From NCBI RefSeq assembly GCF_020616515.1, contig NZ_CP085135.1, positions 2,480,001-2,544,000 on the forward strand: 64,000 nt of DNA, in the 5' to 3' direction. The notes under the pieces were generated by a model. It ran no database searches. It saw only the letters and a program-made list of their open reading frames with translations, and was not told where the DNA came from. The position numbers and the translations under genes are program-made. The stretch is from Mesorhizobium sp. PAMC28654 (lineage in GTDB: Bacteria; Pseudomonadota; Alphaproteobacteria; Rhizobiales; Rhizobiaceae). Positions 44,877 to 64,000 of the stretch are shown in pieces (position 1 is the first letter of the stretch; each line of letters opens with the position of its first letter).

Positions 44877-44962
44877 GGTGCTCGACGGCGCAAAAGCCGA
44901 GTCCTACAAACTGATCTGACATGCTGCGGTGCCGGTGCCGCATGCCAAACGACGGATCGAAT

Positions 44963-46024: not shown

Positions 46025-46823
46025 TCTCCATCGGCACCTCGCGCCCATCTCCGAGCAGGCATGGGAGCAGATCGAAGAGGAAGCGTCGCGGACGCTCAAG
46101 CGCCATCTGGCCGCGCGGCGCGTCGTGGACGTCGTCGGCCCGAAGGGCGTCGACTTCTCGGCTGTCGGAACAGGTCATCTCAAGCCGATTGCCTCGCCCG
46201 GCGAAGGGGTGCAGTCCGTGCAGCGTGAAGTGAAGGCGCTGGTCGAATTGCGCGTCCCTTTCGAACTCACCCGCCAGGCGATTGACGATGTGGAGCGCGG
46301 CGCGACCGATTCAGACTGGTCGCCCGTGAAGGAAGCGGCGCGCCAGATCGCCTTCGCCGAGGATCGCTCCGTGTTCGACGGATATGCCGCGGCCGGCATC
46401 CAGGGTGTTCGCCAGGGCGCCAGCAATGCCGTTGTCACGCTCCCCGCCAATGTGATGGGCTATCCGGAAGCTGTCGGACAGGCGGTCAGCCAATTGCGGC
46501 TTGCCGGGGTCAATGGCCCTTATGCTCTTGTGCTGGGTGCGGCCGCGTATACCGCCGCGAGCGGCGGCAGTGACGAGGGCTACCCGGTCCTCAATCATCT
46601 CGAACGGTTGGTCGACGGAGGGATCATCTGGGCGCCGGCCATAGAAGGCGGGTTCGTGCTCACCACGCGTGGGGGCGATTTCGAGCTGGACATCGGGCAG
46701 GATATCTCGATCGGCTACCTCAGCCATTCTGGCACGGCCGTCGAATTGTACCTCCAGGAGACCTTCACTTTCCGGCTGCTGACCGCCGAGGCCGCTGTCG
46801 TGCTCGCACCTGTGAAGAAGTAG
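46017..46823 (+). CDS. family 1 encapsulin shell protein
   Basis: 268-aa HK97-fold shell protein, the usual length. The N terminus LHRHLAPISEQAWEQIEEEA forms the cargo-binding region in this family. Further family segments are GPKGVDFSAVGTGHL, REVKALVELRVPFELTR, AAREIAFAEDRSVFDGY-like AARQIAFAEDRSVFDGY, DIGQDISIGYLSH and YLQETFTFRLLTAEAAVVL. It would assemble into an icosahedral compartment holding the DyP encoded just upstream. Its stop is 12 bp from the convergent SDR gene. Confidence 0.95.
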   Translation: MNNLHRHLAPISEQAWEQIEEEASRTLKRHLAARRVVDVVGPKGVDFSAVGTGHLKPIASPGEGVQSVQREVKALVELRVPFELTRQAIDDVERGATDSDWSPVKEAARQIAFAEDRSVFDGYAAAGIQGVRQGASNAVVTLPANVMGYPEAVGQAVSQLRLAGVNGPYALVLGAAAYTAASGGSDEGYPVLNHLERLVDGGIIWAPAIEGGFVLTTRGGDFELDIGQDISIGYLSHSGTAVELYLQETFTFRLLTAEAAVVLAPVKK

Positions 46824-49394: not shown

Positions 49395-50834
49395 TTATTG
49401 ATAAGGGCCGGTGAGGTTGGATTTTTCGGCGACAAGGCAAAAGCGATTGATCAACCGGACAAGCTCCTCGCCTTGTTCGGCGACGATGTCTCGGCGCTGC
49501 TCCGGGTCCGCGCTTGCCATTACCTTCCAAAGCCGGGCTTGCCGGTCACAGAGGTCGCCCAGCTCAGAACACTCCTGCGCGGTCAGCTTCAACAGATTCC
49601 CCGCCGTTACCGGCCCGACGCCGGAGGGCGTGGTTGCTCCCAGGGAAACATATTCCGGCGGCACGGTGCCTTTTGCGTTCGTCACCGATTTGCGGCGGAT
49701 GACGCCGAAAATCTGGTCGACTGCCTGTTTGGCGCCAGCCACCCGCGAAGGATGATCCGTATCGGCCGCGGCGTGCGGCAGAAGCTCAAGCTTGCCGCCG
49801 TGTTTCTCGACAAGGGCGAGATAAGGCAACATCGGGCCTGAAAGGCTGCCGGTCGATGCGTCCCGGAACAGGTCGGCATCGATTGCCGCATGGCGTACCC
49901 GCCCGGCATCGAGGGCATCGCCAAGAGCCGCAACGTCGACAAGCTCGCCGCGATCATAATTGACCAGCACCGCGCTGTTGTTCAGGCGGGACAAGACCTC
50001 CGAGCCGACGAGCCCTGCATTGGCATAGCGCCCGGTTTGCGCGTCCGGCTTGCCAAGCCCGACATGTACGCTCAGCACATCGGCGCCTTCAGCCGCGTCA
50101 GCGGGACTTGGCGCGTAGACAAACCCTTCGGCCTCGATCCACTCCCGGTGCCTTGGCCTCGCATGAACGACCACATGCATGCCGAAGGCGCGGGCAAGCT
50201 TGGCAACCTCGCGGCCGATATTTCCGTAGCCGATGATCGCGATCGTCTTACCTTCCAGCTTTTCGGTCGGAAAATCGCGCAGGTCCCTGCCGGTATCGAA
50301 CGCGCCGCGCGCGACCCGGTCGTGAAGCGTGTCAACGGGGATATCGGGCAGCACTTTGAGGATCGCCTTCATCACCATCTGCGCCGTGGCGCGGCTGTTG
50401 ATGCCCGGCGTGTTCATCAGCACCGCCGTGCCGCCCTCGCCGCTGCCGCCGCCCCAGGAGCGTGACCCCATATTGCCGGTGCCGGCGCCGATACGCACGC
50501 CGGCAAGCGGAAAAGCGGTCTCGACCGGCAGGAAGGTCGCCGCCGCGATGACGGCGTCGTACCGGCCGTCGCCGGCAGCCTCGATCAATTCGTCTCGCGT
50601 GCTGAGATCCGGCTGGTAGAAGAAATGAACGCGGCCGTGTTCGAGGCTGGCCTTGTCGCCGAGTGCGCCCGCATGAAAACGACCGCCCCGGGTTTCAATG
50701 TGGGCTCGCACCTCGCTGGCATCGGGCTTCCCATCAGGCCCAAAACGCAGGCCGACCAGGTCGCAGATGAGCACGGCATGGGCGCGCTGCTGCTCAGTTG
50801 ACTCGGTGTTCTGTGCATTGGTGTTAGCGGTCAC
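49395..50834 (-). CDS. NAD-dependent D-2-hydroxyacid dehydrogenase family protein
   Basis: 479-aa protein. The NAD-binding core is EGKTIAIIGYGNIGREVAKLARAFGMHVVVH, followed by NNSAVLVNYDRGELVDVAALGDALDAG, as in phosphoglycerate and other 2-hydroxyacid dehydrogenases. The usual catalytic histidine motif is partly recognisable in LELLPHAAADTDHP. It is longer than typical members because of an N-terminal region of about 140 residues and a C-terminal extension from about 390. The exact substrate is unknown. Confidence 0.82.
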   Translation of the reverse strand: MTANTNAQNTESTEQQRAHAVLICDLVGLRFGPDGKPDASEVRAHIETRGGRFHAGALGDKASLEHGRVHFFYQPDLSTRDELIEAAGDGRYDAVIAAATFLPVETAFPLAGVRIGAGTGNMGSRSWGGGSGEGGTAVLMNTPGINSRATAQMVMKAILKVLPDIPVDTLHDRVARGAFDTGRDLRDFPTEKLEGKTIAIIGYGNIGREVAKLARAFGMHVVVHARPRHREWIEAEGFVYAPSPADAAEGADVLSVHVGLGKPDAQTGRYANAGLVGSEVLSRLNNSAVLVNYDRGELVDVAALGDALDAGRVRHAAIDADLFRDASTGSLSGPMLPYLALVEKHGGKLELLPHAAADTDHPSRVAGAKQAVDQIFGVIRRKSVTNAKGTVPPEYVSLGATTPSGVGPVTAGNLLKLTAQECSELGDLCDRQARLWKVMASADPEQRRDIVAEQGEELVRLINRFCLVAEKSNLTGPYQ

Positions 50835-51057: not shown

Positions 51058-52404
51058 CTAAAGGCTGGGTCCCAGTTGAATTGGGCTGCCGTCGCTGAAC
51101 CGGGATTGGCGGAACCTGTGAAGGTTGTGTCCTGTCTCGTTTCCCTGGACGAGGTCGGACACCACTCTGCCCATGCCGGGTCCTATGCCGAAGCCGTGAC
51201 CGCTCATCCCGGTTGCGATAACGAGGCCCGGGATTTCGGCGGCACGATCAACGATAGGCACGACATCCGGCATCGCATCGATCATGCCCGCCCAGCTCGC
51301 CTTGAGCGGCATTGTCTTGAATTGCGGGAAAAGCTCCTTGAACTCGCGGTCGATGTCGCGCAGCGCCGAGGCTTTGGGGGCGGGATTGAGGATGCGCATC
51401 CGTTCGAATGGACTCTCTTCGTCAGCGTTCCACTTGCGCGGGGTTGACCAACTGTCCGGATACCCTCGCGGTGCGGCCGGCAGGTAGCGCGTGCCAAAAG
51501 GATTCGCCATCAGCGCGCTGACATACTTGCTGGCGTGACGAAACGCGTCCGGCCCGACATACAGCTGATTGGCGCCTCCCGATGCAAGCGTGTACCCGCC
51601 ATCCTGCCTGCGCCGGAATGCGATATGTTCGTCGGCGACCGCACCAGGATGAACTTCCGGCATCGGTTGGGTCGCGGCGACCGTCGCCCTGACGCTTAGC
51701 TGCGGGATCGAGATGCCGTGCGCGCGCAGGAAGAGCGACGTCCACGCGCCGCTCGCAACCACGACGCTTGAGGTGGCAATACGGCCCTTCTCGGTCCAGA
51801 CGCCGCTGATGCGTCCTGCTGAGAGGTCGAGCATACGTGCCGCGCAATTTTCCATGATCGTGACGCCCTGCCGGGCAGCCAGGCGAGCGAGCGCGGGCAC
51901 GGCGACCCAAGGCTCGGCACGCATGTCCGATGGGGTGGTCATCGCGCCCCTGAACGGGCGCGACATCGCCGGGATCAGCCTGGCGGTCTCGCTCTGGTCA
52001 AGGAGGCGTGTGTCGAGGTCATGAGCCTGGGCGATCTTGAAGAATTTCGCGAACCCGGCCATCTCCTTGTCCGTCCGTGCAAGATAGGTAACGCCTGTCT
52101 GCTTCAACCCTATGTCTTCGCCGCACTCCTCGGCCAGTTGCCGCCAGAGGCGTTGCGCTTCGATCACGATCGGCAACTCATCGGCATCACGGCCCTGCTG
52201 CCGGATCCAGCCCCAGTTGCGCGAGGATTGCTCGGCCGCTATGCGTCCCTTTTCCAGCAATGTCACCGAAATGTTCCGCCTGGCCAGGAACAGCGCCGTC
52301 GCCACGCCGATGACGCCCCCGCCGATGATCACGACATCAGAGGTCTTCGGCAGCGGTGCTTGAAACTGGATCGGAGTGGCTTCGGTGAAGGGAAAGATCG
52401 TCAA
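51058..52404 (-). CDS. FAD-dependent oxidoreductase (DAO/DadA family)
   Basis: 448-aa flavoprotein. The FAD motif is DVVIIGGGVIGVATALFLARRNISVTLLEKG, SSRNWGWIRQQGRD is a conserved segment of this branch, and the C-terminal FAD contact is ATGMSGHGFGIGPGMGRVVSDLV, so the domain is complete despite the adjacent fragment. It would oxidise an amino acid, N-methyl amino acid or related amine. Neighbours do not fix the substrate. The 370-bp gap upstream holds one large hairpin and no recognisable gene. Confidence 0.87.
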   Translation of the reverse strand: MTIFPFTEATPIQFQAPLPKTSDVVIIGGGVIGVATALFLARRNISVTLLEKGRIAAEQSSRNWGWIRQQGRDADELPIVIEAQRLWRQLAEECGEDIGLKQTGVTYLARTDKEMAGFAKFFKIAQAHDLDTRLLDQSETARLIPAMSRPFRGAMTTPSDMRAEPWVAVPALARLAARQGVTIMENCAARMLDLSAGRISGVWTEKGRIATSSVVVASGAWTSLFLRAHGISIPQLSVRATVAATQPMPEVHPGAVADEHIAFRRRQDGGYTLASGGANQLYVGPDAFRHASKYVSALMANPFGTRYLPAAPRGYPDSWSTPRKWNADEESPFERMRILNPAPKASALRDIDREFKELFPQFKTMPLKASWAGMIDAMPDVVPIVDRAAEIPGLVIATGMSGHGFGIGPGMGRVVSDLVQGNETGHNLHRFRQSRFSDGSPIQLGPSL

Positions 52405-52706: not shown

Positions 52707-52867
52707 TTACGCCAATGCTGGGGAGGCAGAGTTTGGGAACACAGGCCTTCAGCGCGGCGTATGGCTAAAACCGATCAGTAGACCACGACGCTGCGGATGC
52801 TTTCACCGGCATGCATGAGGTCAAAACCCCTATTGATGTCCTCGAGCTTCAGCGTGTGGGTGATCAT

Positions 52868-52909
<42 letters not shown>

Positions 52910-53930
52910 TTTCGGCACATCGGTGCGGCCGCGCGCGCCGCCAAAGGCGGTACCCATCCAGGTGCGCCCGGTGACCAGCTGGAACGGCCGCGTCGAAATC
53001 TCCTGGCCAGCACCGGCAACGCCGATGACCACCGACTTGCCCCAGCCGCGATGCGAGGCTTCCAGCGCCTGGCGCATGACCTTGGTGTTGCCGGTGCAGT
53101 CGAACGTGTAGTCGGCGCCGCCGATCTGGTCGGCGCCGCGTTTGGTCATGTTGACGAGATAGGGCACGACATCGCCGTCGATCTCCTTGGGATTGACGAA
53201 ATGCGTCATGCCGAACTTCTCGCCCCAGGCCTTCTTGTCGTTGTTGAGGTCAACGCCGATGATCATGTCGGCGCCGGCAAGGCGCAGGCCCTGGATGACA
53301 TTCAAGCCGATGCCGCCAAGACCGAAGACCACGGCCGTCGCGCCGATCTCGACCTTGGCGGTGTTGATGACGGCGCCGATGCCGGTGGTGACGCCGCAGC
53401 CGATGTAGCAGATCTTGTCGAAGGGGGCGTCTGGGTTGACCTTGGCCAGCGCGATCTCCGGCAGCACGGTAAAGTTGGAGAAGGTCGAGCAGCCCATGTA
53501 GTGGAAGATCTTGTCCTTGCCGATCGAGAAGCGCGATGAGCCATCGGGCATCAGGCCCTGGCCCTGCGTGGCGCGGATGGCCGTGCACAGGTTGGTCTTG
53601 CGCGACAGGCAGGACGGGCACTGGCGGCATTCGGGCGTGTAGAGCGGGATGACATGATCGCCCTTCTTGAGCGAGGTGACGCCCTTGCCGACATCGACGA
53701 CGACGCCGGCACCTTCATGGCCGAGAATGGCTGGAAACAGGCCTTCGGGATCGGCGCCCGACAGCGTGAACTCGTCGGTGTGGCAGATGCCCGTCGCCTT
53801 GATCTCGACCAGCACCTCGCCTTCGCGCGGACCCTCGAGGTCGACCTCCATGATCTCAAGCGGCTTTCCGGCGGCGACTGGACTTGCCCCGAAAAAGTGG
53901 AGAGTTTCCTTCTGATGAAAGGCGACCTCG

Positions 53931-54224
53931 ATGACGAAACAGAGACAGTTTACGGATGCGTTCAAGGCGGAGGCGGTTGGCCTTGTGCGAACGAGCGGTC
54001 GGACGAAGCGGCAGATCGCGGAGGATCTTGGTGTTGGTTTCTCGACGCTGACGCGATGGATGGGTCGGCAGCTGGATCGTGAGATGGGCGATCCTGGGCG
54101 TCCGCCTGATGCTGATGTCGCCGCTGAATTGAAACGGCTGCGGCGGGAGAATGAAATCCTTCGGCAGGAGCGGGATATCTTGAAACGGGCGACGGCTTTT
54201 TTCGTCAAGGAGGGAAGTCGGTGA
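53931..54224 (+). CDS. IS3-family transposase OrfA
   Basis: 97-aa protein with an N-terminal helix-turn-helix (FTDAFKAEAVGLVRTSGRTKRQIAEDLGVGFSTLTRWM) followed by a leucine-zipper-like coiled coil (ELKRLRRENEILRQERDILKRA) used for multimerisation. It recognises the IS ends and regulates transposition. Its end overlaps orfB by 4 bp. A run of six T residues near 54198-54203 is a possible frameshift site for an OrfAB fusion. Confidence 0.94.
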   Translation: MTKQRQFTDAFKAEAVGLVRTSGRTKRQIAEDLGVGFSTLTRWMGRQLDREMGDPGRPPDADVAAELKRLRRENEILRQERDILKRATAFFVKEGSR

Positions 54225-55081
54225 GGTTCGCGCTCATCGACCAGGCGAAGAAGGATTTCCCTGTGGACCGTTTGTGCGCGACGCTGGGTGTCAGCCCGAG
54301 CGGCTACTTTGCCTGGGGGCGCCGGCCGGCGTGCCGCCGGCAGCGCGACGACATGATAATGCTGGCGCATGTGCGATCGTCGTTCGCGCTGTCGAACGGA
54401 ACCTATGGTAGCCCGCGCATGACGCGGGAACTGCAAGACAATGGCTTTGCCATTGGCCGGCGACGAACGGCGCGTCTGATGCGGGAGAATGGCCTCCAGG
54501 CAAGACAGAAGCGGCGGTTCAAGCGCACGACGGACAGCGAACACGCCTTTCCGGTTGCCCCCAATGTCATCGACCAGGATTTTGCCGCCACTGGTCCCAA
54601 CCAGAAATGGGGTGCCGACATCTCCTACATCTGGACGCGGGAGGGCTGGTTGTACCTTGCTGTCGTCATCGATCTGTTTGCCCGCAAGGTCGTTGGCTGG
54701 GCTGCTGGCAACCGGCTACACCGCAGCCTGGCTCTGGCAGCGCTCAACAAGGCGTTCGTCATGCGGCAGCCGGAACCCGGCCTCATTCACCACTCCGACC
54801 GCGGCAGCCAATATTGTTCTATCGACTACCAAGCCGAATTGCGTGCCGCCGGCGTCATCATCTCAATGTCAGGCAAGGGCAATTGCTTTGATAACGCCAT
54901 GGTCGAAACATTCTTCAAGACGCTGAAAACTGAACTGATCTGGCGCACCTCTTTCCTTACCCGCGCCGATGCCCAAGCCGCCATTGCCCGATATATCGAC
55001 GGCTTCTACAATCCCATCCGGCGGCATTCCGCGCTCGACTACATCAGCCCGATGCAGTTCGAGCGAAACGCCGCCGAATGA
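54221..55081 (+). CDS. IS3-family transposase OrfB (DDE catalytic subunit)
   Basis: 286-aa integrase-core protein. The N-terminal HTH_21-like region contains GTYGSPRMTRELQDNGFAIG. The catalytic triad is seen as Asp in WGADISYIWT, Asp in IHHSDRGSQYCS and Glu in NAMVETFFKTLKTEL, with the DDE spacing usual for IS3. It starts at a GTG overlapping orfA, and in many IS3 elements is made mainly as an OrfAB frameshift fusion. Confidence 0.95.
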   Translation: MRFALIDQAKKDFPVDRLCATLGVSPSGYFAWGRRPACRRQRDDMIMLAHVRSSFALSNGTYGSPRMTRELQDNGFAIGRRRTARLMRENGLQARQKRRFKRTTDSEHAFPVAPNVIDQDFAATGPNQKWGADISYIWTREGWLYLAVVIDLFARKVVGWAAGNRLHRSLALAALNKAFVMRQPEPGLIHHSDRGSQYCSIDYQAELRAAGVIISMSGKGNCFDNAMVETFFKTLKTELIWRTSFLTRADAQAAIARYIDGFYNPIRRHSALDYISPMQFERNAAE

Positions 55082-55198
55082 GCAACCCGCTCTCCACTTT
55101 ACCGAAGCAAGTCCAGACAGCGACTGCGGCGCGGGTTTTCATTCTTTTTCTCCAAATGGGTGTTTTGCAGAGCCGTGGCCCGGCTCTTTGTGATCGGT

Positions 55199-55855
55199 CT
55201 AGGCGGCGACGGCGACCTTGCCGGGGCCTGCCGGGAATACGCCCGACATCACCGTAAACCCCTTGATGCGCTTGACCCGGTCGCACCAGCGCCGGATGGC
55301 CGGATAGTCCTGGCGCGGAATACCGCCCTCCTCCGACAGGATGATGTAGGGAAAGCAGGCAATGTCGGCGATGGTTGGATGACCCGCCGAACAGATCCAG
55401 TCGCGGCCCTGCTGCTCGCCGAACCACAGATGTTCGTCGAGGATGCGGAACAGCCGATGCGCGCCGGCGCGGACGGCATCGATGTCGAAATCATAGAACA
55501 GGCCGTCATGCAGGCGCGCCGCCGAGGAGGTCGCGGTGATGCCGTCGGCGAAGGCCAGCCATTGGCTGATCTCGCCCAGCAGCGCCGGGTTGTCCCTGGG
55601 ATACCACGTGCCTGATGGATCGTATTTCGACGCAAGGTAGACGAGGATCGCCTGCGCATCGCGCAGCAGCAGCCCGTCATCGTCGAGCACCGGCAATTGC
55701 CCGAGCGGATTGAGCTTGAGGAACCACTCCGATTTGTGCTCGCGGCCGGGATAGAAGTCGACAGGCACGGTCTTGTAGTCGACGCCGAGAAAGCTCAGCA
55801 GCAGGCGCAATTTGTAGCAATTGCCTGACAGTTCGTAGTCGTAAAGCGTGATCAT
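55199..55855 (-). CDS. glutathione S-transferase-like protein (NdmE-like)
   Basis: 218-aa GST fold. The thioredoxin-like N-terminal domain has LYDYELSGNCYKLRLLLSFLGV and the cis-Pro region NPLGQLPVLDDDGLLLRDAQAIL; an all-helical C-terminal domain follows (STIADIACFPYI-like PTIADIACFPYI). In the P. putida CBB5 system, NdmE is a GST homologue needed structurally with NdmC and NdmD. This gene follows the NdmD-like gene by 9 bp, in the same order. A separate glutathione-conjugating or formaldehyde-adduct role is possible given frmA next to it. Confidence 0.85.
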   Translation of the reverse strand: MITLYDYELSGNCYKLRLLLSFLGVDYKTVPVDFYPGREHKSEWFLKLNPLGQLPVLDDDGLLLRDAQAILVYLASKYDPSGTWYPRDNPALLGEISQWLAFADGITATSSAARLHDGLFYDFDIDAVRAGAHRLFRILDEHLWFGEQQGRDWICSAGHPTIADIACFPYIILSEEGGIPRQDYPAIRRWCDRVKRIKGFTVMSGVFPAGPGKVAVAA

Positions 55856-55864
55856 CGGCTGCTC

Positions 55865-57628
55865 CTAGATGTCCAGCACGAGGCGTGCCGATTTGGCCCG
55901 CGAGACACAGGTCATGATCTTGTTCCCGGCTTTTTTCTCGGCGTCGTTCAGATAGACGTCCTGGTGGTCCGGCTCGCCTTCGATCACTGTCGCAACGCAG
56001 GTGCCGCAAGCGCCCTGCTCGCAGGACGACGGCACATCGATGCCGTTCTCGCGCATCACCTGCATGATGGTCTTGCCGGCGGGCACCTTGAGCGTGACGC
56101 AGGAGCGCGCCAGGGCCACCTCAAAACTCGAACTGTCGTCGATCTTGTTGGTGTTCTTGAAATACTCGAAATGCACGGCGGCGTCCGGCCAGCCTTGCTC
56201 GGCCGCGACCTTGCGGGCAGCTTCCAGCATCGGGCCGGGGCCGCAAATGTAGACATGCATGCCATTCCGGTAAGGCGAAAGCAGCTCGCGCAATTTCGCG
56301 CCAGTTTGTTCTGGCGTGAGGCCAAGATGCGGCACAAGCGAGCCGCCGAGCTGCCGCAGGCGGTCGGAGAAGGCGAGATGGTCTTCGCCTTGCGCGAAAT
56401 AGTGCAGTTCATGCGCCAGATCCTGGTTCTTCAGCGCCTGCGCCATGGCCAGCAGCGGCGTGATGCCGATGCCGCCGGCGATAAACAGCGTCTTGATCGC
56501 GTCGCGGCGCAGCGGAAAATTGTTGCGCGGCTCGGAAATCGCCAGCACGTCGCCTTCACGCACGGTCTCGTGCATGCATTTGGAGCCGCCCTTCGAATCC
56601 CTCTCCAGCTTGACGCCGATGGTGAAGCTGTCGGTTTCGCCAGGACCGTTGGTGATCGAATATTGCCGGACCTCGCCATTGGGCATGTGGACATCGATAT
56701 GGGCACCCGGCTGGAAGGTGGGCAGAAGCCCCTTGATCGGGCGCAGCTCGAACCCGGCTATGCCGTCGGCTGCCTGCCATTTCCGCGCCACCGTGACGCG
56801 CAACGCCGCCTTGCGGCCATGCGTCGTCAGTTCCGGCATCTCGGCAAGCTCGGCCGACACCTTTTCATAGACAGGCTCGATCGGGGCGGGCGCGACCGCG
56901 CTTGCAGCCTCGCGTTCCACCGCATCGCGCAGCTTGCCAAGCCGTTCATTATGGTGGCGCAGGACGGCGATATGGGCGGCTCCTTCGATATCCCCGTCGA
57001 GCACGCCGCGAATGACCGAGCGGTTGGAATCGACAGGCTGGACAAAGAACACGCCATGCGTCTCCTCGCCGCCGTTACGCGAGCGGAGCGCCACGGCAAA
57101 ATCCTGCGCGGCTTCGACCAGCATATCCGCGCCGTCGCCCTCGACAGCCCCGCTGGGCTGGAAGCGATAGGCCTTCAGCTTCTCTACGACCCTGTCGGCG
57201 GGCGCGTTGACCGGAATGCCGCGCAAGGCGAGCAACTTGCCCTCCGGCAGCCCGACATCGGGAACCTCCCCTTGCGGCTCCTCGGATGACCAGACGAGGC
57301 CATAGCGCTCCACGGCGGGAAAGGTGCGGTTGGTGATGGTGCGCGCCGGCGCGTCGGCTGGGTGCGCGGGGATATAGGTGCAGCCGGCGGTGCGGTTCGA
57401 ATAGCGCCAGCCATGGTACTGGCACTTCAACTCGCGGCCGTCATTGATGCCGATCGACAGCCTGACGCCGCGATGCAGGCAGCGGTTCTCCCAGATGTTG
57501 ATGTAACCGTCATCGGCGCGCCAGACGGCGAACTCCCGGCCAAGCAACTGGCCATGGAAAACGTGGCGGTAAGGCAAATCATGGGCAGCGGCGATCGGAT
57601 GCCACCGGTTCCTGGCTTCTTGCAACAT
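55865..57628 (-). CDS. Rieske-domain-fused reductase (NdmD-like)
   Basis: 587-aa electron-transfer protein with three redox modules. Residues about 8-110 are a Rieske [2Fe-2S] domain with ligands C50-x-H52 and C69-x2-H72 (CLHRG; CQYHGW). Residues about 255-490 are a flavin/NAD reductase of the phthalate-dioxygenase-reductase type (RQYSITNGPGE; GGIGITPLLAM; YICGPGPML). The C terminus is a plant-type [2Fe-2S] ferredoxin with cysteines 536, 541, 544 and 574 (CEQGACGTC). Reductases normally lack a Rieske domain; NdmD of P. putida CBB5 is the known exception and has almost the same length (588 aa by recollection). It would supply the cluster missing from the two oxygenase subunits. GGAG precedes the ATG. 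Confidence 0.93.
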   Translation of the reverse strand: MLQEARNRWHPIAAAHDLPYRHVFHGQLLGREFAVWRADDGYINIWENRCLHRGVRLSIGINDGRELKCQYHGWRYSNRTAGCTYIPAHPADAPARTITNRTFPAVERYGLVWSSEEPQGEVPDVGLPEGKLLALRGIPVNAPADRVVEKLKAYRFQPSGAVEGDGADMLVEAAQDFAVALRSRNGGEETHGVFFVQPVDSNRSVIRGVLDGDIEGAAHIAVLRHHNERLGKLRDAVEREAASAVAPAPIEPVYEKVSAELAEMPELTTHGRKAALRVTVARKWQAADGIAGFELRPIKGLLPTFQPGAHIDVHMPNGEVRQYSITNGPGETDSFTIGVKLERDSKGGSKCMHETVREGDVLAISEPRNNFPLRRDAIKTLFIAGGIGITPLLAMAQALKNQDLAHELHYFAQGEDHLAFSDRLRQLGGSLVPHLGLTPEQTGAKLRELLSPYRNGMHVYICGPGPMLEAARKVAAEQGWPDAAVHFEYFKNTNKIDDSSSFEVALARSCVTLKVPAGKTIMQVMRENGIDVPSSCEQGACGTCVATVIEGEPDHQDVYLNDAEKKAGNKIMTCVSRAKSARLVLDI

Positions 57629-57649
57629 TCATCGTCTCCAAAAATCTTG

Positions 57650-58555
57650 TCAGGCCGCAACCGGGATCACGCCGTAGGTCACGCCCTTCTGGCTGAGCCA
57701 GCGCCGGTAGGCGATGGCCGACTTGTCGGCCCGGATGGGCGTTTCGGCACGCGGGTCCAGCGGCAGGCGCTTTGGCACCTGGTTCTCCAGGATTGGCTTG
57801 TCCTGGCCGAAAATCGTCTGCTGAAAGCGCTTGATCACCTTGTCTTCATTGTCCTCGTCGAGCACGCAAAGCAGCATGTGGGCGCGCACATGCTCCTGGT
57901 CGACGGGCTGCAGAAAGACGGCGATGACATCGCGCCGGGTCTCGTCGAGCGGGCTCGATTTGTAGAGCACCGAGCAATAGGGGTGCGGCACGCGGTAGAC
58001 ATAGTCCACGTCCGCACCGCCATCCGAAACCGTCGAAGCCATCGGCTGGAAGAAGCGGCAACGTGTGGCCAGGATCTCGTCACGGTCGACGGAGATCTCG
58101 ACGTCGTATTCCTTGACTTCGGTATGCGGTTCGACGCCGAGGATGTCGGTGTGCACATAGGGGAAGTGGCCCATGTCGAGAAAATTCTCGATGGCGCGCG
58201 GCGCCGAGACGTTGACGCCAAATGTTGCCGCGTTGAGCTTGCGGCGGTCAGGCTCTTCATATTCCGGGATCGGGAACAGCTCGGCCGGCGGCGAGCCGAG
58301 CGAGATCCAGACATAGCCATAGGCGCTCTTGACGGGCAGTGTCTCACGGATTGACGCAGGATCGACCTGTTCGCCAGGCCGCAGGTCGGGCCGAGATTTC
58401 CAGGCACTGATGGCGCCGTTCGCGCCGACCGCGAAGCTGATCTTCTCCCCGAGCAGAATTGTCTCCACAACCCTGTCAGGCGCCGTCTCGGTAATGGCGC
58501 CGATCGGATGCCAGAGGTTGAGAATGACCGGGTCCGAACATTTCGTCTGTATCAT
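57650..58555 (-). CDS. Rieske-less oxygenase catalytic subunit (NdmC-like), copy 1
   Basis: 301-aa protein related to Rieske non-heme iron oxygenase alpha subunits of the demethylase type. The mononuclear iron site is visible as D127-x2-H130-x4-H135 (NFLDMGHFPYVHTD), with a further carboxylate likely in QDKPILENQ. Where the Rieske ligands CxH and CxxH should be, the sequence goes directly from GANGAISAW to LPVKSAYGYVWISLG with no Cys-His pairs, so the cluster is absent. The ATG at 58555 has GAAGGA upstream; ATG 58561 and TTG 58579 are alternatives. It lies 21 bp before the Rieske-fused reductase gene. It is predicted to remove an N- or O-methyl group and release formaldehyde. Confidence 0.9.
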   Translation of the reverse strand: MIQTKCSDPVILNLWHPIGAITETAPDRVVETILLGEKISFAVGANGAISAWKSRPDLRPGEQVDPASIRETLPVKSAYGYVWISLGSPPAELFPIPEYEEPDRRKLNAATFGVNVSAPRAIENFLDMGHFPYVHTDILGVEPHTEVKEYDVEISVDRDEILATRCRFFQPMASTVSDGGADVDYVYRVPHPYCSVLYKSSPLDETRRDVIAVFLQPVDQEHVRAHMLLCVLDEDNEDKVIKRFQQTIFGQDKPILENQVPKRLPLDPRAETPIRADKSAIAYRRWLSQKGVTYGVIPVAA

Positions 58556-58595
58556 TTTCATGTCCTTCGAAGGAGCCAAGCCGGCACCGATCCCG

Positions 58596-59456
58596 TCAGG
58601 CCTGGGCCGGAATGGCGCCGTAGGTTATTGCCCGCTCGCGCAGCCAGCGCCGGTAGGAGACAGAGACGGCGTCGGCACGGATCGGCGTTTCGGCACGCGG
58701 GTCGAGCGGCAGCCGTCGCGGCACCTGGTTTTCAAGGATCGGCTTGTCCTGGGCGAAGATGAGCTGCATGAAGCTGCGCACCGTCGCCGCGTCGATGCCG
58801 TCCTTGAGATAGCAAAGAAAGGGATGAGCGATGCAGTTGTCCTCATCGACCGGCTGCACGAACAGGGTGATGACGTCGAGCCGGTCCTTCTGCACCGGAT
58901 TGCTCTTGTAGAGGGCCACGGTATAGGGCCGGATCACCTTGTATATGTAGTCGACGACAAAGCCTTCCTTGGCGGTGGGCGAGGCAAGCGGCTGATAGAA
59001 TTTGCATTCGGTGGCCAGCACCTCGTCCTTGTCGGTGATCTCGACCTTGTAGGGCACCACTTCAGTGTGCGGTTCATCGCCCAGCAGGCCAGTGTGAACG
59101 AAGGGGAAATGCCCCATGTCGAGAAAGTTCTCGACGGCGCGCAGGCCCGACACCTTGACCGCGATCGAGCCGCCGGTGACCAGATGCCGGTCCGCCTCGT
59201 TCGACTCCGGAATATGGATGATGTCCTGCCAGGGCTTGCCGAGGCACGCCCAGACAAAGCCGTAACGCTCGGCCGCATTGACCTGTTCGCCGGTGTCCCG
59301 CCGAACGATCTCCTTGTTGTAGCGCCCCTTGCAGGTGACCACGAGATCGACACCAAGAAGCCGTGTGGCGAATGGAGTGTCGGCGGAAAGCATCGAGCTA
59401 TCAGCAACGATATGCCAGTCGTTTAGGAGAGCCCTGTCACCGCAAGGACCTGTCAT
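58596..59456 (-). CDS. Rieske-less oxygenase catalytic subunit (NdmC-like), copy 2
   Basis: 286-aa paralogue of copy 1 and first gene of the operon. The iron site is D113-x2-H116-x4-H121 (NFLDMGHFPFVHTG), with QDKPILENQVPRRLPLDPRA near the C terminus nearly identical to copy 1. It also lacks CxH/CxxH Rieske ligands. The start is set by GGGAGGA before ATG 59456; the frame remains open to 59666 without family sequence. The two copies share the core but diverge in the N-terminal third, so they may have different substrates or form a hetero-oligomer. Confidence 0.9.
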   Translation of the reverse strand: MTGPCGDRALLNDWHIVADSSMLSADTPFATRLLGVDLVVTCKGRYNKEIVRRDTGEQVNAAERYGFVWACLGKPWQDIIHIPESNEADRHLVTGGSIAVKVSGLRAVENFLDMGHFPFVHTGLLGDEPHTEVVPYKVEITDKDEVLATECKFYQPLASPTAKEGFVVDYIYKVIRPYTVALYKSNPVQKDRLDVITLFVQPVDEDNCIAHPFLCYLKDGIDAATVRSFMQLIFAQDKPILENQVPRRLPLDPRAETPIRADAVSVSYRRWLRERAITYGAIPAQA

Positions 59457-59575
59457 TGCAATTGTCCTCCCTGGCCGGCTCTTCACCTTGAATCCGGCTT
59501 GGTAAGCGTCACCATTGCAAACACAAGATTGGATATCAATCAATGCATTTTTTGTAGCCAATGAATGTTTTTTGG

Positions 59576-59695
59576 TTGACAGATTAAAAGGATTGCATCC
59601 CATATATGTCACACCGCAACCTGGGATATGGGGCGCTGGAATGATGTCAATGATCGACGGTGACATTGCGAAAGGCGCGCTGGAAATCCAGCGCG
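59576..59695 (+). promoter_or_regulatory. divergent promoter and operator region of the demethylase/transport locus
   Basis: The 249-bp gap between the oxygenase operon and gntR is AT-rich in part. TTGACA (59576-59581) with CATATA about 19 bp downstream could drive gntR. CCCATAT and ATATGGG form an inverted pair between about 59599 and 59638. ATGTCA-N11-TGACAT (59644-59666) is a further dyad. A perfect 8-bp hairpin CGCGCTGG-AAAT-CCAGCGCG (59676-59695) lies just before the GTG of gntR. The GntR protein probably binds one of the dyads. Confidence 0.45.
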
Positions 59696-59705
59696 ACCCC
59701 GCACC

Positions 59706-60545
59706 GTGAGCAGCCGTTCCCAGTCAATCGCCGAAACGCTGACACGCGCCGTCATTGACCACAGGCTCGTCCCTGGCTGCAAGCTCGGCGAACGCGAACT
59801 CGCCGAAATATTCGACGTCAGCCGCATCGTCGTCCGCCAGGCCTTGATCCGGCTCGCCGATGACGGACTGGCCCAGATCGAGCGCAATCGCGGCGCCTTC
59901 GTCGCCAGGCCGAGCATGCAGGAGGCGATGGAAATCTACGACGCCCTGACGCTTGTCGAACAGGGCGTGGCAGCGCAGCTCAGCGATCGGCTGGGTCCGG
60001 CCGGCTGGGCCGAACTGCGCCACCATGTCGAGCGGCAGCGCCAGGCCGTGGCCACGGGCAATGATGCGCTGGCCGATGTGCTTGGCCAGGAGTTTCATAC
60101 CGTCTTCGTTCGCCTCAGCCGCAACAAGGTGATGCAGGAAATCCATGCGCAGCTTGTGCGCCGCACGACGCTGCTGCGGTCGCTCATTTCAGCCGATTTC
60201 GATTACTGCAATCTGCTGGACGACCACTCGCGGGTGGTCGACCTTCTGGAAAAGGGCCGCCTGAAACAGGCAATGGACCTCATCGACACCCATCACCGGT
60301 CGGTGGTGCGCGGCTACATCATGGACCGCGAGGTGTTTCCGGAAATGACGCCCGCCGAGGCTCTTGCCCCCTATCTCGATGGCACGGCCGATGCAGCCAC
60401 GACAGCGGTTCCGCTCCGAAGGATGGCGAAGTCATCAGGCAATGGCGACGCGGCAACGCATCTACATGTCCATCTTCCAAAAACAGACCCGGCACCCGCA
60501 AGCCGGGCATCAAGCAAAAAAACCAACAGAGGGTTGCCATCATGA
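59706..60545 (+). CDS. GntR/FadR-family transcriptional regulator
   Basis: 279-aa regulator. The winged helix is TLTRAVIDHRLVPGCKLGERELAEIFDVSRIVVRQALIRLADDGLAQIERNRGAFV, and the C-terminal FCD-type ligand domain includes RTTLLRSLISADFDYCNLLDDHSRVVDLLEKG and metal-site-like histidines (QEFHTVF; DTHHRSV). A GTG start. The last 45 residues are low-complexity tail. It is divergent from the oxygenase operon and overlaps the BMP receptor gene by ATGA, so it likely controls both arms. Confidence 0.9.
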   Translation: MSSRSQSIAETLTRAVIDHRLVPGCKLGERELAEIFDVSRIVVRQALIRLADDGLAQIERNRGAFVARPSMQEAMEIYDALTLVEQGVAAQLSDRLGPAGWAELRHHVERQRQAVATGNDALADVLGQEFHTVFVRLSRNKVMQEIHAQLVRRTTLLRSLISADFDYCNLLDDHSRVVDLLEKGRLKQAMDLIDTHHRSVVRGYIMDREVFPEMTPAEALAPYLDGTADAATTAVPLRRMAKSSGNGDAATHLHVHLPKTDPAPASRASSKKTNRGLPS

Positions 60546-61636
60546 ACGACGTAACAAGACGCGATTTCCTGAAATACAGCGGTGCAATCGGTGCGGCGCT
60601 TGGCACTGGCAGTCTGAGCACGGTCGCGCAGGCACAGGAGGTGCTGAAAATCGGCGCCGTCTATGTCTCACCGGTGGCTGAAATCGGCTGGACCAAGCAA
60701 CACAGCCTCGGCGTCGAGGCGATCAAGGCCGCGTTCGGCGACAAGGTCGAACTCACCGTCATCGACAATATCTTCATGCCGCAGGACGCCGAGCGCATCT
60801 TCCGTGAGCTGGCCAGCGCCGGCAACAAGCTGATCTTCGGCACCAGCTTCTCGCACGGAACGCCGATGCAGAAAGTGGCGCCGCGATTCCCCAAGGTGGC
60901 CTTCGAACATTGCTCCGGCATCGTCCACCTCGCCAATCTCGGCACCTTCGAAGCCAAATATTACGAAGGCACTTTCGTCGCCGGGGCCGCAGGCGCCTAC
61001 GTGTCGAAGGCCGGCAAGATCGGCTTCATCGGCGGCTTCCCGATCCCCGACATCGTCGGCCCGGCCAATGCGCTGCTGCTTGGCGCGCAAAGCGTCAATC
61101 CGAACGCCACCTGCAACGCGATCTTCCTCAATTCCTGGTTCGATCCGGGCAAGGAAAAGGAGGCCGCCAAGACGCTGATCTCACAGGGCTGCGACGTCAT
61201 CTGCTCGATGACGGACACGGCAACCGGCGTCCAGGTCGCCGGCGAAGGCGGCGCCTGGTCGATCGGCTATGCCAGCGACATGGCGAAGTTCGGCTCCGGC
61301 AAGCAGCTGACGTCGTTCGTCCTCGACTGGACCAGCGATTATGTTGGCGCGGCCAAGGCCGTCGCTGCCGGCACCTGGAAGCCTGAAGTGCGTTGGGACG
61401 GGCTGGCGGGCGGCGTGGTCAAGATGGCGCCCTACAATGAAGGCATTCCCGCCGATGCCCGGGCCAAGCTGAAACAGCTGGAGGCCGATATCGGCAGCGG
61501 CAAGGTGCATCCCTATGCCGGCGAGTTGAAGGACCAGGGCGGCACCGTCAAGGTCGCCGCCGGTTCTGTTCTCGCCGACAACGACATTCGCGGCATGAAC
61601 TGGTTCGTGAAGGGGATGATCGGCAAGCTGAGCTGA
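60542..61636 (+). CDS. BMP-family ABC transporter substrate-binding protein (purine/nucleoside class)
   Basis: 364-aa receptor of the BMP/PnrA family, whose characterised members bind nucleosides or related purine compounds. The N terminus carries a twin-arginine signal (TRRDFLKYSGAIGAALG) with cleavage after AQA, so it is predicted to be exported folded. Family segments are VYVSPVAEIGWTKQHSLGVEAI, FGTSFSHGTPMQKVAPRFPKVAFEH, KIGFIGGFPIPDIVG and CDVICSMTDTATGVQVAGEGG. It is the receptor of the importer encoded by the next two genes, and likely brings in the demethylase substrate. Confidence 0.92.
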   Translation: MNDVTRRDFLKYSGAIGAALGTGSLSTVAQAQEVLKIGAVYVSPVAEIGWTKQHSLGVEAIKAAFGDKVELTVIDNIFMPQDAERIFRELASAGNKLIFGTSFSHGTPMQKVAPRFPKVAFEHCSGIVHLANLGTFEAKYYEGTFVAGAAGAYVSKAGKIGFIGGFPIPDIVGPANALLLGAQSVNPNATCNAIFLNSWFDPGKEKEAAKTLISQGCDVICSMTDTATGVQVAGEGGAWSIGYASDMAKFGSGKQLTSFVLDWTSDYVGAAKAVAAGTWKPEVRWDGLAGGVVKMAPYNEGIPADARAKLKQLEADIGSGKVHPYAGELKDQGGTVKVAAGSVLADNDIRGMNWFVKGMIGKLS

Positions 61637-61657: not shown

Positions 61658-61685
61658 GGCGCCGAAGCTGAGTTGCTTCGGCGCC
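61658..61685 (+). terminator. perfect 11-bp stem-loop after the BMP receptor gene
   Basis: GGCGCCGAAGC and GCTTCGGCGCC around loop TGAGTT, 21 bp after the stop codon and 47 bp before the ATPase gene. It is an intra-operon hairpin without U-tract. Confidence 0.55.
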
Positions 61686-61732
61686 AGCCAGCTTGCGTCC
61701 AACCTCGCTTCACGCCACGGCAGGACCCGCCA

Positions 61733-63280
61733 ATGCATCCGCGTCTAGAATTGCGCAACATCTGCAAGCGCTATCCGGGCGTCGTCGCCAATGACGACGT
61801 TTCGCTGTCGATCCAACCCGGCGAGATCCACGCTGTGCTTGGCGAAAATGGCGCCGGCAAATCCACCCTGATGAAGATCATCTATGGCGCGGCGCAGGCC
61901 GATTCCGGGGAAATCCTTAGCGACGGCAATCCGATCGTCGCCCACAATCCGGCGGTATCGCGCGCACTCGGCATCGAGATGGTCTACCAGCATTTCGCGC
62001 TGTTTGAATCGGTGTCGGTGGTCGAGAACATTGCCCTGTCGACAAGCAGCGCCTTTCACCTTCCCACGCTCGCCGAAAAGATCCGCGACCTCTCCCTGCG
62101 TTACGGCACGCCCATCGATCCGCATCGCCAGGTGCACGATTTGTCGGTCGGCGAGCGCCAGCGCGTGGAAATCGTGCGTTGCTTGCTGCAGGCGCCAAAA
62201 CTACTGATCCTCGATGAACCGACTTCGGTGCTGACACCGCAGGCCGTGGTCAAGTTGTTCGAGACGCTCCGGCAACTGGCCGCCGAGGGCTGCAGCATCG
62301 TCTATATCAGCCACAAGCTCGACGAGGTGCAGGAGCTCTGCGACACCGCCACCGTGCTGCGCAACGGCAAGGTCACCGGCACCGCCCGCCCGAAGGAGAC
62401 GACATCGCTGGAGCTCGCCCGCATGATGGTCGGCTCCAAGCTGCCTGAAATACGCGTCAGCCCGCCGGTCCCGAGCGACAAGCCAGTGCTTGAGGTCAAA
62501 GGCCTATCGGTCAAGGCCCGGGACCATTTCGGCGTCGACCTCAAGGACGTTTCATTCAATGTGCATGGCGGGGAGATCGTCGGCCTTGCCGGTGTTTCCG
62601 GAAATGGTCAGGCCGAGCTAATCGCCTTGCTCAGCGGCGAACGCACCCATGAGCGCGCCGATGCGATCAGGATTTGCGGAACCGACGCCGCCCGCCTTCG
62701 CCCCCAGGAACGCCGCAAGCTCGGCGTCGCCTTCGTTCCCGAAGAACGGCTTGGGCGCGGTGCGGTGCCATCGCACACGCTGTGGGAGAATGCCGTATTG
62801 ACGGCGCACCGCTTCGGCACGGTGCGCAAGGGGCTGGTTGACCGCCGCAAGGCAAAGGCTTTCGCCACGGGCATTATCGACAGGTTCAAGGTCAAGGCCA
62901 ATGGAGCCCAATCGACCGCGCAAAGCCTGTCGGGCGGCAATCTGCAGAAATTCATCGTCGGGCGCGAGATCGCACTCACGCCAAAGCTCTTCCTGGTGTC
63001 GCAGCCGACCTGGGGTGTCGATGTCGGCGCGTCCGCCTTCATCCGCCAGACGATCATCGATCTCAGTCGCGCTGGTGCAGCCGTATTCGTCGTTTCCGAG
63101 GAACTCGACGAGTTGTTCGAGATCTGCGACCGGCTGCTGGTCATCTGCCAAGGAAAGGTGTCTCCGCCACTGATCCGCACGACCGCCGACCGCGAGGAGA
63201 TCGGGCTTTTGATGACCGGCCAAGGCATGGGCGAAGGCGTATCGGCGAACAGGGGTGGCAGCGTTGCATTTCAGGATTGA
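61733..63280 (+). CDS. BMP-type ABC transporter ATP-binding protein (two ABC domains)
   Basis: 515-aa tandem ATPase. The first domain has Walker [10 protein letters not shown], the Q-loop region YQHFALFESVSV, signature LSVGERQRVEIVRCL and LLILDEPTSVLTPQ. The second has degenerate Walker A GVSGNGQAE, signature LSGGNLQKFIVGREI and FLVSQPTWGVDVGA. YQHF and LSVGxRQRVEI are typical of nucleoside (NupA-like) importers rather than of ribose importers. The permease gene starts within its 3' end. Confidence 0.93.
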   Translation: MHPRLELRNICKRYPGVVANDDVSLSIQPGEIHAVLGENGAGKSTLMKIIYGAAQADSGEILSDGNPIVAHNPAVSRALGIEMVYQHFALFESVSVVENIALSTSSAFHLPTLAEKIRDLSLRYGTPIDPHRQVHDLSVGERQRVEIVRCLLQAPKLLILDEPTSVLTPQAVVKLFETLRQLAAEGCSIVYISHKLDEVQELCDTATVLRNGKVTGTARPKETTSLELARMMVGSKLPEIRVSPPVPSDKPVLEVKGLSVKARDHFGVDLKDVSFNVHGGEIVGLAGVSGNGQAELIALLSGERTHERADAIRICGTDAARLRPQERRKLGVAFVPEERLGRGAVPSHTLWENAVLTAHRFGTVRKGLVDRRKAKAFATGIIDRFKVKANGAQSTAQSLSGGNLQKFIVGREIALTPKLFLVSQPTWGVDVGASAFIRQTIIDLSRAGAAVFVVSEELDELFEICDRLLVICQGKVSPPLIRTTADREEIGLLMTGQGMGEGVSANRGGSVAFQD

Positions 63281-64000
63281 ACAAAGACCGGAGCCTTCCG
63301 CGCCGATGCGCGTTGCCGCGCCGATCCTGGCGACGGCGCTCACGGTCATCGTCGGCTCGATCTTCTTCGCCTCTCTCGGGCATGATCCGCTGGCCACGCT
63401 CTATGCGTTCTTTGTCGAGCCGCTCAGCTCGATGAACGGACTGTCGGAATGGCTGCTAAAGGCCTCGCCGTTGATCCTCATCGCTTGCGGGCTGGCGGTC
63501 GGTTTCCGCGCCAACGTCTGGAACATCGGCGCCGAGGGCCAGTTCACGATGGGTGCCATTGCCGCCAGCGGCGTCGGGCTGTTCTGGCCGAACCCGGAGA
63601 GCGTGCTGCTTTTGCCTCTGATGTTCCTGGCCGGCATGGGCGCCGGCATGGCATGGGCGGCAATCCCCGCATTCCTGCGCGCCCGCATGAACACCAACGA
63701 AATCCTCGTCACCTTGATGATGACCTATATCGCCACTCTGTTCCTGTCCTATCTCGTGCATGGACCGTGGCGCGATCCGGCTGGGTTCAACTATCCGCAG
63801 ACGGCCATGCTGCCCACCGCCGCGCTGCTGCAATCCTTTGATCCCGCCTACCGGCTCAATTCCTCGATCTTCATCACCGTGGTCGCCGTCATCGTGATGT
63901 GGCTGTTCACCGACCGCAGCTTCCTCGGCTACAAGATGTCGGTGAGCGGCGCGGCCCCTCTCGCCGCGCGTTATGCGGGGTTCCGCGAGTCGGCGGCGGT
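63255..64000 (+). CDS. BMP-type ABC transporter permease (3' end outside window)
   Basis: Partial membrane protein, at least 248 aa, with no stop inside the window. The N terminus MAALHFRIEQRPEPSAP from GTG 63255 precedes the first helix (ILATALTVIVGSIFFASLG). The family motif LACGLAVGFRANVWNIGAEGQ is seen as IACGLAVGFRANVWNIGAEGQ, and FLRARMNTNEILVTLMMTYIA is the conserved coupling region of NupP/YufP-type permeases. It overlaps the ATPase gene by 26 bp; ATG 63306 is an alternative start. A second permease is expected beyond the window. Confidence 0.9.
   Translation, partial: MAALHFRIEQRPEPSAPMRVAAPILATALTVIVGSIFFASLGHDPLATLYAFFVEPLSSMNGLSEWLLKASPLILIACGLAVGFRANVWNIGAEGQFTMGAIAASGVGLFWPNPESVLLLPLMFLAGMGAGMAWAAIPAFLRARMNTNEILVTLMMTYIATLFLSYLVHGPWRDPAGFNYPQTAMLPTAALLQSFDPAYRLNSSIFITVVAVIVMWLFTDRSFLGYKMSVSGAAPLAARYAGFRESAA

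Follow-up and report, generated by a model that had tools for sequence, protein, structure and literature searches.

The window analysed here is a stretch of 64,000 nucleotides (G000:C1:2480001-2544000) from a 6.70-Mb single-contig rhizobial genome, and it carries an operon of four genes: oxyA and oxyB, which encode two Rieske-less oxygenases, a reductase gene, and a gene for a glutathione S-transferase (GST)-like protein. We are confident that this operon belongs to the NdmCDE family and that its oxygenases receive electrons from the Rieske domain carried by the reductase. It is also highly probable, on profile comparison and predicted fold, that the N-terminal ~250 residues of the reductase are a complete but decayed Rieske-oxygenase alpha subunit, in which the Rieske centre is kept and the iron site lost. 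Overall, the operon probably encodes a multi-component oxidative N-demethylase acting on N-methylated purines, an N-methylpurine being its probable substrate; N-methylguanine in particular is put forward only tentatively.

The 7-methylxanthine N7-demethylase of Pseudomonas putida CBB5 consists of NdmC, which lacks a Rieske domain, NdmD, a reductase with a Rieske domain, and NdmE, a GST homologue. The four genes of the window are adjacent and all on the minus strand, with open reading frames (ORFs) as given in the preliminary description of this DNA, and the kinship with NdmC, NdmD and NdmE that it proposed is borne out by identities, trees and the domain order of the reductase. As CBB5 references, a protein search yielded NdmD (P0133, NDMD_PSEPU) and NdmC (P0251). 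The reductase is homologous to NdmD along its whole length, with 39% identity across 594 columns and the same domain order, so that the distant placement from NdmD named beforehand as grounds for abandoning the kinship was not found. OxyA and OxyB are 48% and 46% identical to NdmC, respectively. The GST-like protein encoded alongside was compared with the GSTs of relatives; it is 60–69% identical to those of seven loci from different families of the same phylum, five of which carry NdmA/NdmB-type genes. In the 11 loci read from two such families (L120 and L131–L140), these genes occur in 5, namely L120, L133, L135, L136 and L138, with best solved-structure matches to NdmB for L138 (697 bits) and L133 (634 bits) and to NdmA for L135 (662 bits). 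L138 is Pandoraea captiosa, judged by its NdmC protein, which a source already labels putative NdmC.

Neither OxyA nor OxyB has a Pfam match to the Rieske domain; both match VanA_C, the oxygenase C-terminal domain, and OxyB also matches KshA_C. In a MAFFT alignment with full-length proteins of the NdmA/NdmB type, both lack the CxH...CxxH stretch that holds the four Rieske ligands but retain the strands on either side of it. The 2-His-1-Asp iron site is intact in both proteins, with the triad H116/H121/D237 and the bridge D113 in OxyA and the triad H138/H143/D260 and the bridge D135 in OxyB; D135, H138, H143, D260 and the invariant H234 of OxyB are identical in 33 of 33 rows (alignment A2). The Rieske-less oxygenases listed keep an ENFLDxxHxPxxH-type stretch (S for N in OxyA of L085) and a C-terminal QD motif, the latter absent from only two rows, the frameshifted OxyA of L097 and the truncated OxyA of L115. 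The earlier assignment of both proteins as Rieske-less oxygenase subunits thus holds, and the Rieske centre and the mononuclear iron are not in one chain, as in a classical alpha subunit, but split between the reductase and OxyA/OxyB. A recent tandem duplication of oxyA and oxyB was rejected, as the two are 48% identical and their grouping in a single clade fails the approximately unbiased (AU) test (p 2.9e-52); many genomes pair a lone OxyB-type protein with a reductase. OxyA and OxyB may serve different methyl positions or substrates, much as NdmA, NdmB and NdmC divide the work around a single NdmD.

In the 51-row oxygenase tree, a clade supported at 99/96 unites NdmC (8 rows, among them CBB5) with OxyA (12 rows); a third oxygenase type (oxy3) lies just outside it, and the OxyB type branches deeper. 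The rows of this tree and of alignments A2/A3 (33 rows) and A4 (41 rows) were chosen by hand for spread. The same OxyA/OxyB split appears in a 60-row tree. The reductase tree has 38 rows and was rooted, by choice, on the NdmD side; it divides this side from the rhizobial one with support of 100/100. Twelve near-duplicate loci were left out of both the 60-row and the reductase tree, and the frameshifted and truncated OxyA out of the former. OxyA does not group as a plain NdmC orthologue: it is sister to the NdmC clade from NdmA/NdmB clusters, OxyB falls outside, and more than one Rieske-less oxygenase (two in the window) goes with one reductase. Nor is this a caffeine (ndmABCDE) cluster, since NdmA and NdmB are absent from the window, as described before; the reductase is the sole Rieske-family match there, of 12 across the genome.

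The reductase matches Rieske, NAD_binding_1 and Fer2 by Pfam, with an alpha-subunit-like part at residues 1–249, a flavin mononucleotide (FMN)/NADH module at ~276–491 and a plant-type [2Fe-2S] ferredoxin at ~502–587. The Rieske ligands C50/H52 and C69/H72 and the ferredoxin ligands C536/C541/C544/C574 are kept in 50 of 50 reductases longer than 500 residues, from 50 loci. The preliminary description was right about the extra N-terminal Rieske domain, the flavin part and the ferredoxin of this 587-residue protein; the N-terminal half is more than a Rieske domain alone. Missed there were the nature of residues 118–250, an frmA gene cut by an insertion sequence (IS) 3' of the GST gene and a divergent purine-type ABC transporter. 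On the profile and predicted-fold evidence, we replaced a simple fusion of Rieske domain and reductase with the decayed alpha subunit. The match also holds in a subset of 17 reductases, CBB5 NdmD included, 16 of which are less than 45% identical to that of the window, and the closest oxygenase to the N-terminal half, both by sequence and by predicted fold, is SxtT/GxtA. The structure was predicted with AlphaFold for the reductase as a single chain. Two results weigh against the decayed subunit: the middle region alone is unmatched by a profile of 14 full-length Rieske oxygenases (E 0.43), and by profile it matches only the Rieske-less family, oxygenases in general being reached only by predicted fold. 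The middle region might instead be an unrelated linker and its oxygenase-like fold an AlphaFold artefact, as its low sequence identity to oxygenases would allow, together with a profile match that for residues 118–275 alone spans just 37 columns and is lost when full-length oxygenases are the target, and a predicted template modelling score (pTM) of only 0.52 overall; set beside the match in the 17 reductases and the predicted fold, we consider this very improbable. In a tree of 27 Rieske domains, 15 reductase domains group on one side, weakly (74/85); only one of nine loci of the window's own genome entered that tree, and nothing is therefore claimed about the exact donor.

Rieske oxygenases hinge on electron transfer from the Rieske centre of one subunit to the iron of its neighbour. 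OxyA and OxyB would correspond to alpha subunits that retain the iron without the Rieske cluster, and the N-terminal half of the reductase to the converse. We infer that the parts may reassemble an oxygenase-like ring, with the Rieske centre of the reductase beside the iron of OxyA or OxyB, in the manner of neighbouring subunits in ordinary Rieske oxygenases, and with the GST-like protein as a scaffold. Electrons would pass from NADH through FMN, the plant-type ferredoxin and the Rieske centre of the reductase to the mononuclear iron of either oxygenase. The BMP-type transporter would import the purine, OxyA and OxyB would hydroxylate its N-methyl groups at the mononuclear iron, yielding demethylated purine and formaldehyde, and the latter would be oxidised by FrmA, in relatives also by FrmB. 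A wider and doubtful extension takes every NdmD-type reductase as a fusion with a whole dead alpha subunit, complementary decayed copies being joined on a GST-like scaffold with one to three catalytic paralogues for different methyl positions, and assigns the system to an undescribed catabolism of N-methylated guanine in rhizobia and many other bacteria; bases from RNA/DNA turnover would be taken up, N-demethylated, deaminated as guanine and oxidised as xanthine.

A scan of named genomes gave 521 confirmed stretches encoding oxygenase relatives, the best 80 of which were kept as loci of 20 kb each. The operon order, which had been proposed as something to look for elsewhere, recurs in many genomes and is therefore not due to chance. 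The rhizobial host also stands: the closest named relatives of the reductase are from Mesorhizobium, with 95% identity to that of Mesorhizobium sp. AR07. Sinorhizobium meliloti 1021 has a copy on pSymA, where the reductase gene occupies 826567-828330. Among the 80 loci, an oxyA-type gene (≥50% identity) is present in 50, the reductase in 74, GST in 73, a cognate BMP protein in 49 and another BMP protein in 12, frmA in 28, frmB in 11, a xanthine dehydrogenase (XDH)-like gene in 5 and guanine deaminase in 4. The BMP gene accompanies oxyA in 49 of the 50 loci, the exception being a 5.6-kb contig, and frmA accompanies oxyA in 27 of 28.

Purine demethylation is suggested by these gene neighbours. 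Guanine deaminase adjoins the operon and shares its strand in L173 and L184 (Mesorhizobium), L191 and L199, and it is also a neighbour in L099 from another locus set. It follows frmA in L191 (a Hyphomicrobiales metagenome-assembled genome, MAG) and directly precedes the oxygenase in L199 (Nocardioides), where a purine run comprises xanthine permease (521 bits, cut-off 414), xdhA (429, cut-off 467), xdhB (950, cut-off 850), xdhC (254, cut-off 162) and guanine deaminase (476 against 351 for the subfamily model, 373.6 against 375.4 for the equivalog), followed by oxygenase, reductase and GST. An 8-oxoguanine deaminase scores above its cut-off in L115, right after GST, and in L117. The amidohydrolase of L131 was not confirmed as a guanine deaminase (183.6 against 375.4).

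Other arrangements were seen. Three Rieske-less oxygenases share one Rieske-reductase in L170, L171, L177, L179 and L180; ahead of such clusters lie genes for a serine hydroxymethyltransferase, a glyoxylate-reductase-like protein and an AraC-type regulator (each annotated in one example), a possible one-carbon link. In the marine Rhodobacterales loci L204, L208 and L224, a full-length Rieske oxygenase lies beside Rieske-less oxygenases and the Rieske-reductase, with a plain reductase accompanying it in L204 and L224. In L212 and L214 (Acidimicrobiia MAGs), the Rieske-less oxygenase gene is followed directly by ABC/BMP transporter genes, and no Rieske-reductase or GST was matched within 20 kb.

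The region divergent from oxyA supplies the transporter. The closest solved relatives of its BMP protein are AtzT (317 bits, E 1.3e-93) and then 3s99. According to passages of the AtzT paper, AtzT copurifies with guanine and binds it with a dissociation constant (KD) of 0.11 µM, against 2.5 µM for adenine and 2.2 µM for 2-hydroxyatrazine, it also binds ammeline, and adenine was modelled in 3s99 (PMC6834077). We mapped the AtzT pocket by HMMER alignment, the numbering offset being fixed from Ser97-Phe98. Tyr45, Ser97, Phe98 and Trp194 correspond to W50, S102, F103 and W199 and are kept or conservatively replaced, Asn169 is replaced by proline, and the pocket pattern WSFxDPWMD is common to 69 of 88 BMP rows (which include some genomes twice). 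Three guanine contacts are changed (Glu165 to D170, Asn218 to M223, Asn220 to D225), which counts against a guanine-type ligand. With AtzT as the closest relative and part of its guanine contacts altered, we expect a purine-like ring as the probable ligand, though one bound not quite as AtzT binds guanine. The intergenic region ahead of oxyA contains an inverted repeat, GATTGRTATCCAATC; of 20 loci aligned (those of the genus Mesorhizobium, L019 of Sinorhizobium meliloti and L100–L102), 19 have it and L086 does not, and it is a candidate operator of the GntR regulator. A substrate assignment based on the GntR match or on NCBIfam transporter names ('B6') was rejected, as the scores lie under the cut-offs.

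Besides the changed contacts, several observations weigh against a purine substrate. The BMP cassette is absent from 18 of the 80 loci, all among the 30 without oxyA and including 11 of 11 from Devosia; L110, the sole annotated locus of the Devosia type, adjoins fabV, KamA-like and BamA-like genes. The binding protein of L116 belongs to family 5, L103 encodes an amidase and an allophanate hydrolase, and neither locus has a deaminase. Guanine deaminase lies near the operon in 4 of the 80 loci against ~0.5 expected by chance (two genes per 6.7-Mb genome), an excess that is suggestive only, two of the four being from Mesorhizobium. In the window genome itself, the score of the 8-oxoguanine-deaminase-like gene falls just below its cut-off (531 against 532 bits), the adjacent purine permease (L013:3389-4873) is partial and looks broken, and the two guanine deaminases above the cut-off sit far from the operon. 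The changed contacts, the Devosia loci without a BMP cassette and the different binding protein of L116 lend some weight to a non-purine substrate, an N-/O-methyl or N-alkyl heterocycle with a triazine-, pterin- or guanidinium-like transporter ligand and incidental deaminases; in the same direction, AtzT accepts 2-hydroxyatrazine and ammeline in passages of PMC6834077, and SxtT/GxtA, the solved oxygenases closest in sequence and fold, have saxitoxins as substrates. We nevertheless hold it to be quite unlikely, since the links to guanine or 8-oxoguanine deaminase, XDH and xanthine permease recur in several lineages, Nocardioides included, and the characterised member, NdmC with NdmD and NdmE, uses a methylpurine.

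Within the purines, the operon could be a plain methylxanthine (e.g. 7-methylxanthine) N7-demethylase, in which OxyA takes the role of NdmC and OxyB is accessory or structural, rhizobia importing products of plant caffeine breakdown. The sister position of OxyA to NdmC, the same partners and frmA, the xanthine permease adjoining several family members (four being partial sequences below the cut-off) and the xanthine dehydrogenase of L199 all agree with this. On the other hand, OxyA lies outside the clade of NdmC from NdmA/NdmB clusters, the window lacks NdmA/NdmB, and the guanine deaminase of several clusters would be superfluous for a xanthine product; OxyB is hardly structural, because its iron site is intact and lone OxyB-type proteins occur with a reductase of their own in many genomes. 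We regard this possibility as unlikely, if less so than a non-purine substrate, and prefer an N-methylpurine in the wider sense.

The state of the operon in this strain also needs consideration. The glutathione-dependent formaldehyde dehydrogenase gene frmA is the 3' neighbour of GST, with the IS in between; the IS removes its start codon and first few codons, and in several relatives frmA is full-length. The IS encodes transposase ORFs with HTH_Tnp_1 (53931-54224) and HTH_21/rve (54221-55081) matches, its terminal inverted repeats are imperfect by eye, and it is absent from the relatives L083 and L084. This insertion and the permease (genome 2547389-2548873, NCS2-type), which matches just model positions 6–288 of 389, could mark the operon as a decaying remnant. 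The ORFs of oxyA, oxyB, the reductase, GST, GntR and the transporter are all open, the oxygenase motifs are intact, and a second, full frmA lies elsewhere in the genome (360473-361594), all of which makes decay rather improbable. The CBB5 caffeine cluster includes frmA as well (PMC4408171). The claim that there are no caffeine-pathway neighbours was thus too strong, as frmA adjoins GST and is likewise part of the CBB5 cluster, and as the binding protein of the divergent transporter is of the AtzT-like purine type.

Table 1. Features of the operon and its surroundings (window coordinates unless a locus is named).
Feature	Position	Strand	Basis
oxyA, Rieske-less non-haem iron oxygenase, 286 aa	58596-59456	-	ATG at 59456; NdmC sister clade
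oxyB, Rieske-less non-haem iron oxygenase, 309 aa	57650-58579	-	triad and bridge motifs
Reductase (NdmD-like), 587 aa	55865-57628	-	Pfam, motifs, NdmD alignment
GST-like protein (NdmE-like), 218 aa	55199-55855	-	GST domains (Pfam)
IS insertion, ~1.23 kb, between GST and frmA	53885-55115	+	two transposase ORFs, IS3-like layout
frmA, S-(hydroxymethyl)glutathione dehydrogenase, 5' end lost to IS	52775-53884	-	model positions 8-368 present
GntR/FCD regulator, divergent from oxyA	59706-60545	+	domain match
Intergenic region with conserved inverted repeat, candidate operator	59457-59705	.	alignment of loci
BMP-type solute-binding protein, Tat signal	60542-61636	+	closest solved relative AtzT (guanine-bound)
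ABC transporter ATPase, two ABC domains	61673-63280	+	domain matches
ABC permease 1, runs past window edge	63255-64000	+	continues in genome
ABC permease 2, beyond window	L013:331-1251		genome sequence
8-oxoguanine-deaminase-like amidohydrolase, beyond window	L013:2044-3420		genome sequence

The longest ORF of oxyA begins at 59666, and the start codon in Table 1 yields the 286 residues; the true start of oxyB may lie a few codons further on. Past frmA lie genes for a FAD-dependent amine-oxidase-like (DAO) protein (51058-52404, minus strand) and a 2-hydroxyacid-dehydrogenase-like protein (49395-50834, minus strand), which among the annotated comparison loci cluster with the operon only in the closest relative, L083. 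A DyP-type peroxidase gene followed by an encapsulin (Linocin_M18) gene at 44921-46823 (plus strand) probably encodes an encapsulin nanocompartment and its cargo.

If each chain keeps only one centre, the hand-over of electrons becomes separable, mixtures of the proteins would give access to it, and a well-defined model open to testing would be available for the NdmCDE complex. Members of this large family reach into Actinobacteria and marine Rhodobacterales, and few of them have a known substrate. If a purine or methylguanine substrate is correct, the operon adds a route for recycling modified nucleobases in soil and plant-associated bacteria, and its enzymes are candidate tools for purine N-demethylation. 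Homologues of ndmCDE in Mesorhizobium and Sinorhizobium are reported in PMC4408171, the only paper we found that names rhizobial homologues, and further partial ndm homologues in coffee-borer bacteria in PMC8055839; the structure of the NdmCDE complex is called unsolved in a 2026 paper (PMC13237722). We found no literature on methylguanine N-demethylation by such enzymes and, searching by guessed locus tags, no paper on the operon genes of S. meliloti 1021. The kind of operon is thus already in print for these genera; what is added here is the split-architecture reading and the multi-oxygenase, purine-linked variant.

Taken together, the system resembles NdmCDE of CBB5 in its Rieske-less oxygenase, NdmD-type reductase with N-terminal Rieske domain, GST-like partner and nearby frmA, and differs from it in having two Rieske-less oxygenases (one or three in relatives), no NdmA/NdmB, a BMP-ABC transporter in place of a purine permease, and an OxyA that is sister to the NdmC clade, not inside it. 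NdmA and NdmB, the methylxanthine N1- and N3-demethylases (alpha3 alpha'3), carry their own Rieske cluster, unlike OxyA and OxyB. SxtT/GxtA of the saxitoxin pathway are the closest solved sequences to both OxyA and OxyB, but are complete alpha subunits with both cofactors in one chain and no reductase fusion. AtzT shares the aromatic sandwich and Ser-Phe pair with the BMP protein of the window, which differs from it by E165D, N169P, N218M and N220D in the pocket. Phthalate dioxygenase reductase (2pia, PDR/VanB type), unlike the reductase described here, lacks an oxygenase-like N-terminal half.

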